IMG/VR virus record: IMGVR_UViG_3300012005_000062
Location: 1-21,031 of that record
From: a virus
Length of the DNA: 21,031 nucleotides
Strand: one strand, 5' to 3'
A model generated the notes under the pieces. That model saw only the letters and a list, made by a program, of their open reading frames with translations, had not been told where the DNA came from and made no database searches. Made by a program: the position numbers and the translations under genes. Numbering within the stretch: the first letter of the stretch is position 1; every line of letters starts with the position of its first letter. Below are positions 12,185-20,845 of the stretch, piece after piece.

Positions 12185-13618
12185 TTAGTACATCAGGGAG
12201 CTGATGTTGGAGGTGACTGGTTCGTCTTCTTCCTCTATCGGCTTCATGTAACTTACCAGGAAGTATCCTAATGCCCGCATACCGTCGAAGTGGTGGCCAA
12301 AGCGACGATGGTCATCCCATTTAGGGACAATCTCCTCACCCTGTTTACTTAGTCGTTCGAGCCATACCAGGTTCTCAATCTCCTGCATCAGCCAATTCTC
12401 ATCTTTGCCGGTACGGTCATTCATCTCGACTAAGGTATCAGATATGAATAATCGTGGTTCGCCTGTGCCTGCTTGAATATGGCCATACTCATCGAGCTTG
12501 TTCGCCAGGGTTTCATCCCAACTTGCGGCTTCGCCCGGCTGCTTAACGACAGGTTGAAGGTGCATACCCGCTGTTGCTAATTCTAGTTGCATTCTAGGAT
12601 CATCATTGTCGGTCCAGCCGTTAGTCAGTGTCAGCCCACTAACCTTAGCGTCTCTGAGTTCCTTAATGCGCTCAGTTCTAAGCTGAACCTTACGGAAGCC
12701 CGACACAACATGAACATTATTGTCACCGTCTACACCAATTAGTAACCAAGCGGCTGGGTCAGAAAATCCACCATCAAACGTCTCATACCAAGTCCATGAC
12801 TTATTAAGAGAGTCATAGTGCCTGATGTGTTTCGCTCTATCCCACCAAGCGCATACCAGTCCGACACGCTTAACGAACTTACCCTCACGCCGGACTTGCA
12901 AAGCTTGCTTAGATAAACCCCTGCCCATCTGTTCTTTTTGTTCCTTAGTCAGGTAGGGGTTATCATCCCAACCAGCCTCACTGATAAACAGGTCGGGATT
13001 AGACGTATTAAGATAGATTTCGTCGTACACCCAAGTCATACCTTTAACAGCCGTCATGGTCAGGATTACGTCCAACTGTTGCCCGGCTTCGACACGCACG
13101 AAACACTCCTCCCAAATATCCTTGGGGGGTTCCTCGTCAAACCATATTAACCGCTTACCTGTACCTTGGAACTTTTCCCGGCCTTGGTCATAGGACTTGA
13201 AAGCGATTACTGAGCCGTTCTTTAGCGTCAGCTTCTTAATAATCTTGCCCCTAAGGTAATCAATACGGGCGATGTCCTTCTCGGCAATATATGATAATAA
13301 CTTCTTCTGGGTCGTGTCTTCCTGTACTTCGTAGCTTGGGCAGGCGACCCATATCTCTACTCCGTCCTTAACGCTCTTATAGGGATGGTTGGCCGTAGCA
13401 TAGCGTGTAGTCTCTTGACCGCCCCATTCGGTCTTACCAACACGGTTACCCCAGAATAAAGCCCTAACGGCCTTATCTGACTTAGTAGCCTCATCCTGCT
13501 TGGCATGAGAGGTAGCATACCGTAAGGGATTGGCCGCCATACGGCGATCTCTCTCTGCTAAAGCATTAAGATAATCTATCTTGTCTTGCCTTGATAATGC
13601 GGTCGAGACCTTCGTCAT
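12185..13618 (-). CDS. terL: Terminase large subunit (packaging ATPase/nuclease)
   Basis: The 477-residue protein has a clear two-domain terminase layout. Walker A is GNRVGKT (residues 57-63), Walker B with catalytic Glu is LIWFDEE (157-163), and the coupling motif is ILTMTA (185-190). The C-terminal RNase H-like nuclease domain has Asp282 in TFDGGFSDPAAW, an acidic centre in GWTDND (334-339), and Asp445 in HHFDGMRAL. It cuts concatemeric DNA and pumps it through the portal. ATG 13618 has a GAGG Shine-Dalgarno six bases upstream, which supports this start although it overlaps the preceding gene by 53 bases. This is the most secure functional call in the window. Confidence 0.95.
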   Translation of the reverse strand: MTKVSTALSRQDKIDYLNALAERDRRMAANPLRYATSHAKQDEATKSDKAVRALFWGNRVGKTEWGGQETTRYATANHPYKSVKDGVEIWVACPSYEVQEDTTQKKLLSYIAEKDIARIDYLRGKIIKKLTLKNGSVIAFKSYDQGREKFQGTGKRLIWFDEEPPKDIWEECFVRVEAGQQLDVILTMTAVKGMTWVYDEIYLNTSNPDLFISEAGWDDNPYLTKEQKEQMGRGLSKQALQVRREGKFVKRVGLVCAWWDRAKHIRHYDSLNKSWTWYETFDGGFSDPAAWLLIGVDGDNNVHVVSGFRKVQLRTERIKELRDAKVSGLTLTNGWTDNDDPRMQLELATAGMHLQPVVKQPGEAASWDETLANKLDEYGHIQAGTGEPRLFISDTLVEMNDRTGKDENWLMQEIENLVWLERLSKQGEEIVPKWDDHRRFGHHFDGMRALGYFLVSYMKPIEEEDEPVTSNISSLMY

Positions 13619-13976
13619 CTAAGTCCTCAAATTTATGGATTATTTCACCTACGCTGTTTAACTCAATTGACTGAGCAGCGCGTCCCTCGGTACGATCAGC
13701 TATCTCTTTAGCGTCAGGTAGACTCTTAGGAGCGGCCTCGATCCGCCCAAACGCAATCACCATCGCCATTGTCTTCTCACTATCGGGAGCTTTGACAAAC
13801 GTCTTTAACTGTTCAGGGGTCATGTTCATGAAACGGTTGTACTGGTAGCTGATAGTGTTTTCTTTCTTCCAGCCACCTGGACTAGCATTTTGCGGGTTAT
13901 CACCAAAGCCGCCCTTACCAGTAGGATTGCGCTCCTGTGGCGTCTTCTTGGAAACTAGTTGTGTAGCTTCAGTCAT
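13566..13976 (-). CDS. Putative terminase small subunit (DUF5681-like N-terminus)
   Basis: The gene encodes 136 residues, directly before and overlapping the large terminase by 53 bases. Residues 16-40 contain NPTGKGGFGDNPQNASPGGW, a Gly/Asn/Pro pattern like the DUF5681 region found at the start of many phage small terminases. The remainder is helical (SYQYNRFMNMTPEQLKTF; AMVIAFGRIEAAPK), ending in an acidic/basic helix DEGLDRIIKARQDRLS. A small terminase would recognise the packaging site and stimulate the large subunit. An AAGAGGT lies about 15 bases before ATG 13976, rather far. The family assignment is by motif and position and is fairly likely. Confidence 0.75.
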   Translation of the reverse strand: MTEATQLVSKKTPQERNPTGKGGFGDNPQNASPGGWKKENTISYQYNRFMNMTPEQLKTFVKAPDSEKTMAMVIAFGRIEAAPKSLPDAKEIADRTEGRAAQSIELNSVGEIIHKFEDLDDEGLDRIIKARQDRLS

Positions 13977-14007
13977 AACTATATCGTGCTATACCTCTTA
14001 AAGTTTG

Positions 14008-14326
14008 TCAATCATCATCTTCAGTACTGAACATTCCAAGTATTTGACTCCACGACGAAAATGTTACACCCCTATCATCGATGTAGTACGAAGCGTTGGG
14101 TTTGATGTTGGTGATACCATCCGGCTCGATGCCGAAGTACTCACACCAATCCTCAATGTGCTTCGGGCTGTTGCCTCTCACGGTATGAATAATAACTTGG
14201 TGGCCTGCCTCTTGGAGTTCCTCTATAGCAGCTACCGCTCCCGGCATTGGCTCCCCCATTCGCTTGCCTTTGGGTACGTTGTTGGGGTCACAGATTACAC
14301 CGTCGAAAGTCAATTGCAAGAATCAT
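14008..14326 (-). CDS. HAD-superfamily phosphatase, frame interrupted after codon 7
   Basis: An ATG at 14326, eight bases after GAGGAGG and directly after the previous gene's TAG, opens with MILAIDF and then, in that frame, RRCNL and TGA. One base later the frame continues DGVICDP to a stop at 14008. Joined by a +1 shift at TTT-C-GAC (14308-14302), the product is 105 residues with the full HAD signature: ILAIDFDGV (nucleophile Asp6, Asp8), Thr48 in VIIHTVRG, Lys75, and YYIDDRG with Asp83/84. Without the shift, the downstream frame could only start at TTG 14319 and would lack the nucleophile. Either a one-base error, a real mutation, or programmed frameshifting explains this. Small phage HADs of this type are probably nucleotide or sugar phosphatases; the substrate is unknown. 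Confidence 0.75.
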
Positions 14327-14614
14327 CTATGCCGCCTCCTCTTCATCCTGCGTTAGTTTTACGCCGCGGCTACCAACTCTATTAGCATCACTTATAGCTA
14401 CTTGATCTGCGAAGAACAGGAGCATTGCCTCCATCTCGGTAGTACCGGCATTCTTACGTTTCTTCTCAGGGATCGGCGTAACAAAGGCGGCCAAAGTATC
14501 AGCTCCGATATTGATACTCATGTACTGCTTACCTTTGGGGCCGGTCATCGTTGTCTTGGTGTCAGTGATGGACAACACAAATCTAGGGATGTCTTCGGAC
14601 TTCTTCTTGGTCAT
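14327..14614 (-). CDS. Unknown protein, coupled to neighbours
   Basis: The 95-residue product has a basic N-terminus (MTKKKSED), a predicted beta region (PRFVLSITDTKTTM; YMSINIGADTLAAFVTP), a helix around residues 58-75 (TEMEAMLLFFADQVAI) and an acidic tail DEEEAA. No family is recognised. GGAGG lies five bases before ATG 14614. The start overlaps the preceding gene's stop as ATGA, and the Shine-Dalgarno of the following HAD gene is inside its last codons, so expression of the set is tightly linked. Confidence 0.75.
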   Translation of the reverse strand: MTKKKSEDIPRFVLSITDTKTTMTGPKGKQYMSINIGADTLAAFVTPIPEKKRKNAGTTEMEAMLLFFADQVAISDANRVGSRGVKLTQDEEEAA

Positions 14615-15636: not shown

Positions 15637-15865
15637 GGATACAGTTACAGCAGACAACCGCAGCCGACAAGCTCAACCGTCCAGCTCAAGCCTCCGGGCA
15701 AGTAACCTATCCACCGCACCTTCCCCAAATTGCATGAGCGCAGCGTCCATTCAGAGCGGAGCGCGCAATACGGCCTCGCCGGGTTTCAATCCTCCCGGCG
15801 TCCCTTGACAATTTAATCCCCTGATACGTTCATATGACCGATTAAACCTAACCGGAGATAATACC
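15637..15865 (+). other. Noncoding leader between promoter and first rightward gene
   Basis: No convincing gene is seen in 15496-15865. The 15551-15808 frame is low-complexity Ser/Pro/Ala and starts before the promoter's -10. The segment 15640-15805 is distinctly GC-richer than its surroundings. It can form a perfect seven-base stem CGCCGGG/CCCGGCG (15777-15783 with 15794-15800, ten-base loop) and a weaker ATTGC/GCAAT plus GCGC/GCGC hairpin around 15730-15770. A second TTGACA at 15805 has no good -10. The segment is probably a structured 5' leader. Confidence 0.45.
15820..15834 (+). repeat. Left arm of 15-base inverted repeat flanking the 62-residue gene
   Basis: CCTGATACGTTCATA here is the exact reverse complement of 16077-16091. 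Matches continue less perfectly on the inner side (TTAAT and GG). The arms enclose the 15866-16054 gene. Confidence 0.85.
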
Positions 15866-16054
15866 ATGAATGACTTTAAGGCTTTCGTAATGAATAGTAA
15901 GCAAATGCCCTTTAACGTCTGTATCCACGCCGATAGCGCCGAGCAAGCTAAAACAGTTTTAGCCACCTACGTTGCCAAGCTTGGCCTTACTAAATACCAA
16001 TACGATGAAACGCCCACCACCACATCAATCGCCGTGTTCCCCTTTATTAACTAG
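15866..16054 (+). CDS. Unknown 62-residue protein, first rightward gene
   Basis: ATG 15866 follows a GGAGA Shine-Dalgarno by seven bases. The 62-residue product has a strand-helix-strand look: an N-terminal strand region (FKAFVMNSKQMPFNVCIHA), a helix (SAEQAKTVLATYVAKLG) and a final strand (TTSIAVFPFIN). No family is recognised. The layout resembles small phage proteins in early regions. It lies between the arms of an exact 15-base inverted repeat, and its TAG stop overlaps the first base pairs of the tRNA-like element. Confidence 0.7.
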   Translation: MNDFKAFVMNSKQMPFNVCIHADSAEQAKTVLATYVAKLGLTKYQYDETPTTTSIAVFPFIN

Positions 16055-16160
16055 CCCCTAACCGCTTAATTGGCGGTATGAACGTATCAGGTTCAATACT
16101 TACAAGTCCATAAGCCCTAGCTGGTCGCGGTTGCAATGGTTCAATCCCATTGAGGGGCTC
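16053..16160 (+). ncRNA. tRNA-like element, atypical length
   Basis: AGCCCCT (16053-16059) pairs perfectly with AGGGGCT (16153-16159). CCGC/GCGG at 16062-16076 can form a D-like arm. TGAAC-GTATCAG-GTTCA (16079-16095) is a five-base stem with a seven-base loop with T in the position before the anticodon. AATGG-TTCAATC-CCATT (16135-16151) is a near-ideal T arm. Against a normal tRNA, 39 bases lie between the anticodon and T arms, there is an extra base beside two arms, CCA is not encoded, and the read anticodon (ATC) is unusual. It may be a degenerate tRNA, a mimic or a coincidence. Confidence 0.35.
16077..16091 (+). repeat. Right arm of 15-base inverted repeat
   Basis: TATGAACGTATCAGG is the exact reverse complement of 15820-15834. 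It coincides with the 5' half of the anticodon-like arm and its loop in the tRNA-like element. Confidence 0.85.
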
Positions 16161-16206
16161 ATGGCTTTATAAGCCGCAAGGAATAATAATTGAAAGGCAC
16201 AATATC

Positions 16207-18486: not shown

Positions 18487-18879
18487 ATGGGAAAATATTT
18501 TTGTACAGCACCATTTTGTTTAAGGCGAGCAACGCATACAGAGCCCCTGTCGCTGTGTGACAAACATTATAGGGAACTGGAGTTAATAGATGCCCGTGAC
18601 GCCGCAGAACGAGCCTCCGTGCGTCTGAAAGCACTTGCAGATCTGAATAGTCCTGAGCTACACTCTCTTGAAGTCAAGCCACATCGTAAAGGTGGAGGCA
18701 CTAAGGCTGGTGGGTTAAAAGCAAGAGCTACTAATTACAGGCTCTACGGTTTAGATTTTTATCGTCAGATTGGAAGACTTGGAGGTATCAAGTCGCGTGG
18801 CGGTGGGTTTACTGACCCTGAGCTAGCCCGCGCAGCCGGAATTAAAGGTGGAAAAGCAAGTAGGAGGGATAAAATATGA
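18487..18879 (+). CDS. KGG-motif protein with N-terminal putative zinc site
   Basis: The 130-residue product has two recognisable parts. The N-terminus has Cys6, Cys11, Cys24 and His27 (FCTAPFCLRRATH, then LCDKHYRELE), a plausible zinc-binding group. After a helix with RDAAERASVRLKAL and a basic Gly-rich linker (HRKGGGTKAGG), the C-terminus has YRQIGRLGGIKSRGGGFTD and ARAAGIKGGKASRR, the KGG-type repeat found in YciG/Con-10-like stress proteins and in many phage proteins. A KGG region fused to a zinc site suggests nucleic-acid binding, which is inferred. The stop overlaps the next ATG by four bases (ATGA). Confidence 0.75.
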   Translation: MGKYFCTAPFCLRRATHTEPLSLCDKHYRELELIDARDAAERASVRLKALADLNSPELHSLEVKPHRKGGGTKAGGLKARATNYRLYGLDFYRQIGRLGGIKSRGGGFTDPELARAAGIKGGKASRRDKI

Positions 18880-19979
18880 ATAAGACACCAATGTTATATA
18901 AATACCTTTACTATACAGATGGTTTGATTGTCTCCGAACATGGGAACCTATCTTGGCAGGTTGGGCAAACCAAGACAATTAAAGGTAAGCTGGTTAGATG
19001 CGAAAACGGCTTCCATGCCTCACTCAAACCCCTAGATGCACATACTTTTGTTAAAGGTACGGTTCTAGCCCGCGTCACTGGCTCAGGTAAGAGCATCATC
19101 GAAGAAGATAAGCAGGTTTGGCAATCTATGACCTTAACCGACGCTCGAATGTGGCGTAAGCAAGACAGCGTTGCCTTGAGTATTTTTGCTGCCGAACTAG
19201 TTATCTCTAGTTTTGAAGATAAATATCCAGACGATAAGCGTCCTCATGAGTCAATTAAAGCCGCTAAGAAGTGGCTGGCTGACCCAACGGAGAAAAATAG
19301 GGACGCCGCCTACTCCTACGCCGCCGCCTCCTCCTACGCCGCCGCCTCCTCCTACGCCGCCGCCTCCTACGCCGCCTCCTCCTCCGCCTCCGCCGCCGCC
19401 TCCTACGCCGCCGCCGCCTCCTCCTACGCCGCCGCCTCCTACGCCTACGCCTCCTACGCCGCCGCCTCCTACGCCTACGCCTCCTACGCCGCCGCCTCCT
19501 CCGCCTACGCCTCCTCCGCCGCAAGAAAGAATATACTGGCCAAGATTAACGCTTGGATGGAAGCTCGCTTTGAAGACTTGCCTAGCGTCTATACCCCCGA
19601 TGATATAACTGAACTCAAGGCTAGAGAGTATTTTGTCTTCGGTAGTAATTCAGACGGAATTCATGCTGGTGGTGCCGCCCATACTGCCGTAAAGTGCTTT
19701 AAGGCTATCATGGGTCAAGGCGAGGGTATTCAAGGTCAAAGCTACGCTATCCCGACCATGGAAGGGCTGACTAAGCTCAAGGCTGCCGCTAAACGCTTTA
19801 TCAAGTACGCCGAGAAGCACCCATTGGATATGTTCTATCTAACCAAAGTAGGAACTGGCATCGCCGGACATCCTGAGAGCGTAATTGCTCTACTGTTTGC
19901 GAACGCTCCAGAAAATATCATTCAGCCAGAAGGATGGCTTTCCTCAAAGTACAAAGCAAAGAAAAAGGCACTAGCATGA
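18876..19979 (+). CDS. DUF7666-like / Ala-Ser-Tyr tract / macro-like fusion
   Basis: This 367-residue protein has three parts. Residues about 8-110 resemble the phage DUF7666 domain (LVRCENGFHASLKPLDAHT, then EDKQVWQSMTL). Residues 144-216 are only Ala, Ser and Tyr, encoded by a triplet-repeat tract. Residues about 217-367 resemble the phage macro-like family (A1S_2505-type): FVFGSNSDGIHAGGAAHTA, GQGEGIQGQSYAIPT, then KVGTGIAGHPESVIALLFAN. Macro-like domains bind ADP-ribose or its derivatives. The whole could be an ADP-ribose-binding or nucleotide-signal-binding protein of the early region. It is translationally coupled at both ends by ATGA overlaps. The domain calls are by motif memory only. 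Confidence 0.75.
   Translation: MNKTPMLYKYLYYTDGLIVSEHGNLSWQVGQTKTIKGKLVRCENGFHASLKPLDAHTFVKGTVLARVTGSGKSIIEEDKQVWQSMTLTDARMWRKQDSVALSIFAAELVISSFEDKYPDDKRPHESIKAAKKWLADPTEKNRDAAYSYAAASSYAAASSYAAASYAASSSASAAASYAAAASSYAAASYAYASYAAASYAYASYAAASSAYASSAARKNILAKINAWMEARFEDLPSVYTPDDITELKAREYFVFGSNSDGIHAGGAAHTAVKCFKAIMGQGEGIQGQSYAIPTMEGLTKLKAAAKRFIKYAEKHPLDMFYLTKVGTGIAGHPESVIALLFANAPENIIQPEGWLSSKYKAKKKALA
19305..19523 (+). repeat. 73-codon GCC/TCC/TAC triplet tract
   Basis: The tract consists of the codons GCC (Ala), TCC (Ser) and TAC (Tyr) only, ending in one GCA, in the middle of the macro-like gene. The second half holds a perfect 30-base duplication encoding YAYASYAAAS. It has no stop in any of several frames, which is why spurious poly-Pro and poly-Arg frames appear. 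Confidence 0.95.
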
Positions 19980-20845
19980 ACAAGGAACTGACAATCCAGT
20001 TATACAAATGTATCAATGAGAACGATACGCCTAGGGAGATAGCTCATTGGCATTGTAGTTCAGTTAGTCGATGTCCTCGCGCCCTGTTTTATGAGCGTCT
20101 AGGCTTGCCTGGATTACCTAGTAACGAGCCTGGCGGTGGTAAGAAACTACGCTGGCGAGCTGGTCACGCTATTGAGGCCAGTATCAGACCAGAGCTAGAG
20201 AAGCTCTATCCTAAACTTCTGACCAACGTCAGATTTACCAACCAAGAATTAGATTGCACGGGAGAATTCGATGGCTATGACCCCGAAAGCAAAACTTTAA
20301 TCAGTGTTAAGAGTGTTCACGATTTTGCTTTTATCACTAGAGGCGATACTAACGGGCTCAAGGAAAAGGTCGGGGTAAAGAAAAGCCCCAAAACAGGTAA
20401 AGAAATCAACGACTACGACCTTAAAAAGACTCCCTATATTCATCATGAGTGGCAGGAACACGCCTATGTACTGTTGATGCAGGACGACCTCACCGACGTG
20501 CTTGACGATGGCTATGACCCTGAAAGTAAAACCCTAATCAGTCCCGAAAAATGGCAGGTAGAGCATATTACCTATGTCTATATAACTCTTGGAGGGTTGA
20601 TTGCCTGCTACACGACAGAGGTTCAGCCCGATCTAGTAGATAGGGTAAAAAACAAATTAGAATACTTAAACAAGTTCTGGTCGTTAGGGAGTGAACGCAA
20701 GAGTCTCCCGATGTGTACCTGTAGCCCAGGCCAAGAGATGTATGACGTTCAAGATCAGTATTGCCCATGGAAATACGAGGGTGGTTGCTGTTCAGAAGAT
20801 TTAATAACCGAAGCTAAAGCTTCTAAGGAGAACGAAAATGTCTAA
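19976..20845 (+). CDS. Cas4-like PD-(D/E)XK nuclease, motif III altered
   Basis: I place the start at ATG 19976, overlapping the previous stop as ATGA (289 residues). The signature includes SRCPRALFYERLG (Cys33, start of a Cas4/AddB-type Cys set), RAGHAIEASI (motif I His), TGEFDGYD (motif II Asp), then TLISVKS where the usual D/E-x-K acid is Ser, and EWQEHAYVLL (QxxxY-like). The C-terminus has CTCSPG, QYCPW and GGCC, enough Cys for an Fe-S cluster. Such nucleases process ends in phage recombination and replication. A 12-residue segment, DGYDPESKTLIS, occurs twice (20270-20305 and 20507-20542). The Ser may mean altered or lost cleavage. Confidence 0.75.
   Translation: MNKELTIQLYKCINENDTPREIAHWHCSSVSRCPRALFYERLGLPGLPSNEPGGGKKLRWRAGHAIEASIRPELEKLYPKLLTNVRFTNQELDCTGEFDGYDPESKTLISVKSVHDFAFITRGDTNGLKEKVGVKKSPKTGKEINDYDLKKTPYIHHEWQEHAYVLLMQDDLTDVLDDGYDPESKTLISPEKWQVEHITYVYITLGGLIACYTTEVQPDLVDRVKNKLEYLNKFWSLGSERKSLPMCTCSPGQEMYDVQDQYCPWKYEGGCCSEDLITEAKASKENENV
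20270..20542 (+). repeat. Internal 36-base duplication in nuclease gene
   Basis: 20270-20305 and 20507-20542 both encode DGYDPESKTLIS. Of 36 bases four differ, and all four changes are silent. The second copy looks like an insertion between DVLD and PEKWQVE. Confidence 0.9.

Follow-up and report, generated by a model that had tools for sequence, protein, structure and literature searches.

Can a phage gene still yield an enzyme when a change of reading frame falls inside its active-site motif? This question is raised by a HAD phosphatase gene on the minus strand of the window (the whole stretch of DNA analysed, 21,031 nt, record IMGVR_UViG_3300012005_000062), which is split over two frames. 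The features of the locus are as follows.

14008 to 14326, minus strand: HAD-family phosphatase gene in two frames (sequence, read-through translation and family matches)
14326 to 14306, minus strand: frame-0 start segment of the HAD gene, MILAIDF (translation)
14304 to 14008, minus strand: +1-frame body of the HAD gene, DGVICD... to the stop codon at 14010-14008 (translation)
14302 to 14308, minus strand: shift site, with TTT at 14308-14306, CGA at 14305-14303 and C at 14302 (sequence)
14288 to 14290, minus strand: frame-0 stop TGA, after MILAIDFRRCNL (sequence and frame-0 translation)
14335 to 14340, minus strand: AGGAGG Shine-Dalgarno of the HAD gene, 8 nt before the ATG (sequence)
14327 to 14614, minus strand: upstream 95-aa ORF, whose TAG abuts the HAD ATG (coupling; ORF list)
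13566 to 13976, minus strand: downstream ORF, probable small terminase (77% identical homologue in the related contig L002)
12185 to 13618, minus strand: large terminase subunit (Pfam Terminase_6N 3.1e-12; phrog_2 7.2e-21)

A phosphatase gene in two frames

Read downward on the minus strand from 14340, the sequence is aggaggcggcatag ATG ATT CTT GCA ATT GAC TTT CGA CGG TGT AAT CTG TGA. The preliminary description had proposed a strong Shine-Dalgarno and an ATG coupled to the previous stop; indeed, the ATG (14326-14324) directly follows the TAG (14329-14327) of the 95-aa ORF, for which Pfam and PHROG searches gave no family match. Translation of both frames also bore out its claim that MILAIDF must be followed by a +1 shift at TTT_CGA_C. 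After TTT, the +1 reading picks up at GAC (14304-14302) and stays open for 98 codons, and the HAD motif residues expected to be restored down to 14008 are all present (D6, D8, K75 and D83-D84-R85). The identity of the probable small terminase downstream was deduced from its position beside the large terminase.

When TTTC is read as one step, a 105-aa protein results, which matches PHROG 1238 (5.5e-23) and, under the family cutoff, Pfam Hydrolase (3.7e-5). Against the BT0820 HAD family (NF046079) it scores 42.2 bits (E 9.6e-11), where the curated cutoff is 165 bits, so the predicted product is related to this family but lies outside it. Motif I (D6-F-D8-G-V, pattern DxDx(V/T)), motif III (K75) and motif IV (D83-D84) occur together in the read-through product, as they do in the 7 homologues aligned with it; the product would thus qualify as a HAD-superfamily phosphatase, only provided that the ribosome shifts. 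A profile search returned BT0820 (PDB 2obb; 7.9e-8) and the D-arabinose 1,5-diphosphate phosphatase AfhF of phage HY126 (PDB 9iqw; 1.7e-3). Both structures were also among the top fold matches for a low-confidence model of the +1 ORF alone (pLDDT 67), so that the protein resembles BT0820-like minimal HAD phosphatases and AfhF in sequence profile and in predicted fold. A sugar-phosphate phosphatase is a fair guess for the predicted enzyme. Since the solved relative 9iqw is a phage D-arabinose 1,5-diphosphate phosphatase, sugar phosphates may be the substrates of some of these small phage HADs, perhaps in connection with DNA modification.

Elsewhere in the window, on the plus strand, 18876-19979 encodes a 367-aa protein whose middle holds a long low-complexity run built from repeats of Ala, Ser and Tyr (SYAAASSYAAAS...), and 19934-20845 encodes a 303-aa protein in which the segment DGYDPESKTLIS occurs twice, roughly 80 residues apart.

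The same break in other phage HAD genes

The large terminase of the window has eleven relatives in IMG/VR. In L002, whose large terminase is 93% identical, an unrelated ORF occupies the place of the HAD gene, while L003 has an intact HAD gene downstream of its terminase (GACTTCGACGG). Further HAD genes, in L176-L178, were found by searching with the C-termini of the window and L003 proteins and are intact too. L003 and L176-L178, at about 40-45% identity, are the nearest HAD relatives of the window, and since they are intact the shift is not ancestral to the family of the window gene; among known relatives it is private to the window's lineage. Conservation by descent was therefore ruled out. 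No closely related second copy of the window HAD gene was found in the IMG/VR collection, and a nucleotide search of annotated phages gave no match to the window.

The contrast between the window (13976-14330) and L002 (1385-1760, with an unrelated 111-aa ORF of its own) is a complete difference just upstream of the terminase genes, despite the near-identical large terminases, and suggests that the HAD region beside the terminase is a swapped cassette.

To look beyond close relatives, IMG/VR was scanned with the pattern GAYTTTCGAYGGNGTNAT, which matched at least 50 loci. Among the matches listed, most were chance matches in other genes and two were shifted HAD genes, L056 (GAT TTT CGA CGG TGT AAT CCA TAG) and L057 (GAC TTT CGA CGG AGT CAT TCA TAA). 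A motif-blind sample was then drawn using only the part after the motif as query (alignment A1), and the 80 best of 206 relatives were fetched. Of these 80, 77 have DF or DW before DG, one is in frame but lacks the nucleophile (L072) and two are shifted, both at the F|D boundary: L071, which is the L056 contig and the source of the query, and L138, with GAT TTT TGA C GG, i.e. a prfB-like UUU_UGA_C. Thus the UUU_CGN site is not conserved, with 78 of the 80 wider relatives in frame as well as L003 and L176-L178. L072 (near 1486 of IMGVR_UViG_3300046697_000530) is a close relative of the L056 phosphatase that reads LCLAFDGV, with the nucleophile Asp changed to Ala, and is apparently an in-frame, inactive copy.

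A scan of IMG/VR for any inserted base combined with TTC or TTT, which covered the F|D boundary only, recovered no true HAD genes besides L056, L057 and L154 (the L138 contig), with TTT+C and TTT+T as the only forms; a scan requiring GGAGG upstream gave no further shifted HAD gene. Isolate phages and plasmids yielded no shifted homologue, their matches being single pieces that mostly run from near the N-terminus, and the four isolate-phage homologues that were read directly are intact. An intact relative is carried by Bradyrhizobium phage ppBjS10J-1. In bacterial genomes there were 17 shift-pattern matches, none of them HAD, and even the intact pattern, when combined with GGAGG, does not occur in the 399 genomes. 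Our literature search found no earlier report of frameshifted phage HAD genes.

The window, L056, L057 and L138 therefore share a +1 shift at one codon boundary, F|D of DFDG, between the catalytic Asp residues. UUU_CGN is in frame at the transition in the window, L056 and L057, and all four sites consist of UUU followed by a pyrimidine (C or U). After the shift, all four bodies stay open for 98-125 codons with intact HAD motifs. The nearest relatives of every shifted gene are intact and each shift occurs in one contig, so that no shift is seen to be conserved by descent. Intact relatives had been named beforehand as evidence against programmed shifting; L003 and L176-L178 provide just that, yet the same shift turned up in three separate phage HAD genes. 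In a tree of 81 C-terminal sequences the shifted genes fall in four places, and strongly supported branches force four changes. Built on few columns and containing some long branches, that of L057 among them, this tree gives only rough placements for single genes; as judged from it, the recurrence in four HAD lineages is convergent. Of the extra cases, L138 alone is fully unbiased: L056 served as query, and both L056 and L057 were picked up by the site-specific scan.

The shifted genes also share a strong initiation signal. AGGAGG stands at the start of 4/4 shifted genes compared with 6/78 intact relatives (Fisher p = 1.2e-4; p = 1.0e-3 without L056, on 77 intact genes). AGGAGG had not been required when L056 and L057 (pattern scan), L138 (C-terminal fetch) and the window (preliminary description) were first found.

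Gene loss, read error or another start

The main rival to low-level +1 frameshifting is a recurrent inactivating insertion: a one-base knock-out in a short T run, acquired independently in four phages and leaving no useful protein, which we regard as possible. In a variant of this explanation, strongly initiated copies might be lost more often, high expression being costly. The intact close relatives of every shifted gene fit a loss, as do the TTTC and TTTT sequences, which are expected from insertion of a T into TTC or TTT. Moreover, the HAD gene is dispensable in this phage group, being absent beside the terminase in L002, and the missense loss of the nucleophile in L072 indicates that loss of activity is tolerated somewhere in the family. 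Random hits, however, should spread over ~390 bases, and the 80 best of 206 relatives showed no frame break elsewhere, either in the N-terminal (~2.8 kb) or in the C-terminal (~33.4 kb) coding sequence (L074 and L132, without a near start, have open N-terminal extensions). For the C-terminal part this control carries a bias, as only full-length matches with the best scores were retained. Decay after a knock-out is also at odds with four bodies that are still open and keep their HAD motifs, and a run of two or three Ts is shorter than usual slippage requires.

A one-base sequencing or assembly error in a metagenome contig is a quite unlikely cause. In its favour, the contig comes from a virus collection in which no second copy of its HAD gene was found; against it, four contigs show one type of break at one boundary, and the three with named records come from three different datasets. 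Recurrence at one boundary in three other separate HAD genes makes a read error hard to invoke. By our own estimate, at 1e-4 errors per base, ~0.08 such cases would be expected in 200 genes. The contigs otherwise carry long intact ORFs, with an ORF cover of 0.95-0.98 in the window and most L056 and L138 pieces and 0.87-0.94 in L057, and hence are not indel-ridden assemblies. A read error and a loss mutation had both been put forward as simpler options; the first is unlikely, and the second, as recurrent knock-out, is the main rival.

Very improbable is translation from TTG at 14319 (or 14313) in the +1 frame, where an ORF finder lists a gene at 14319-14008, to give a HAD-like pseudo-enzyme (MQLTFDGVI...) without the nucleophile Asp: although some HAD-fold proteins lack this residue, neither TTG has a Shine-Dalgarno at a usable distance, whereas the ATG at 14326 has AGGAGG, and L056, L057 and L138 have no ATG, GTG or TTG in the +1 frame before the motif. 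In these three genes motif I is thus obtainable only by shifting. As the four genes read, an enzyme with both aspartates would be made only through the shift.

A proposed slippage at the phenylalanine codon

Recurrence at a slip-prone Phe codon behind a strong ribosome binding site suggests that the enzyme may be made by +1 frameshifting and not simply lost. Our preferred reading, to which we give about equal credence and doubt, is that the insertion is real, the gene is still used and some active enzyme is made because tRNA-Phe slips into the +1 frame, whether as a programmed or as a corrective event. Ribosomes would load strongly at AGGAGG-ATG and translate as far as UUU. Some of them would then move ahead by one base, with P-site tRNA-Phe (anticodon GAA) re-pairing from UUU to UUC, or from UUU to UUU in L138, while a slow codon occupies the A site, either CGA or, in L138, the stop codon UGA with C as the next base. 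Slipped ribosomes would read GAC and complete the HAD phosphatase, including its two catalytic Asp residues, non-slipping ribosomes would end within six codons, and strong initiation would offset inefficient shifting. Slippage is inferred, as are its +1 rather than -2 direction, its rate and the use made of it. Frameshifting at UUU-pyrimidine sites was reportedly studied by Schwartz and Curran in 1997. Rather doubtful is the stronger proposal of a regulated, obligatory +1 shift that evolved repeatedly in phage HAD phosphatases at UUU-pyrimidine, exactly between the catalytic aspartates, with enzyme output during infection set by the decoding speed of CGA (tRNA-Arg) or UGA (RF2).

UUU_CGN is the +1 frameshift motif of influenza A PA-X and of plant amalgaviruses (PMC3498833, PMC5052127). 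It is prevalent in the latter, and UUU_CGA has been proposed in two related fungal viruses (PMC5052127). For PA-X, a peptide spanning the site demonstrated the +1 shift, and in the favoured model tRNA-Phe slips from UUU onto UUC while CGU occupies the A site (PMC3498833); sites of this type shift at only about 1-2% (PMC5052127). The phage HAD genes share the P-site/A-site layout UUU_CGN and the possible re-pairing from UUU to UUC. In contrast, the PA-X and amalgavirus shifts take place in RNA viruses of eukaryotes, where long ORFs flank the site on either side and, in PA-X-type systems, UCC is the E-site codon, whereas the HAD genes are those of bacterial viruses and have a frame-0 part of only 7-13 codons, GAY in the E site and a single enzyme whose catalytic motif would be completed by the shift.

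In other respects the HAD genes resemble prfB (RF2; CUU_UGA_C), which has a short frame-0 ORF with the main protein in the +1 frame and, directly after the slip codon, a slow A-site codon with C as the next base (PMC5009743). In a minority of species the RF2 site is UUU_U, and the base after UGA is nearly always C (PMC5009743); L138 has UUU_UGA_C. Unlike prfB, this different gene is shifted sporadically rather than conservedly and has no internal Shine-Dalgarno near the slip codon: none occurs just before it in the four genes read directly, where AGGAGG sits 26-42 nt upstream of TTT, at the start codon. Phage +1 frameshifting in a tailed phage, as proposed here, is known from capsid and tail genes, for example in Listeria phage PSA (PMC5009743). 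There, slippage on a proline codon gives a second, longer structural protein, whereas the HAD gene encodes an enzyme, could not do without the shift and would shift close to its start.

The preliminary description had read the site as one of recoding, and recurrence at UUU-pyrimidine behind AGGAGG supports this part. The CGA codon, suggested to be slow, is by count not especially rare in this phage (33/242 Arg codons), avoidance of TTT_CGA was not seen in the genes examined, and no stimulatory RNA structure beyond shuffles was found downstream of the shift (z from -0.15 to 0.37); recoding is therefore a good hypothesis rather than a result. No tRNA or frameshift-suppressor tRNA was found in the window or the shifted loci, and an Rfam search gave no match. 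Between divergent gene blocks of the window, the intergenic region 15750-16170 contains sequences that by eye resemble tRNA 3' halves, but ARAGORN and Rfam find nothing there.

Firth et al. 2012 left open the use of such motifs in cellular genes (PMC3498833). If the shift is used, the HAD genes would extend +1 frameshifting of the PA-X type (UUU_CGN) to a bacterial virus. Such a shift would stand apart from known phage cases in being indispensable for the product, in lying at the beginning of an enzyme gene and within the motif of its active site, and in having arisen independently several times. The HAD genes also carry a warning for annotation, as gene callers list such genes as truncated, catalytically dead proteins.
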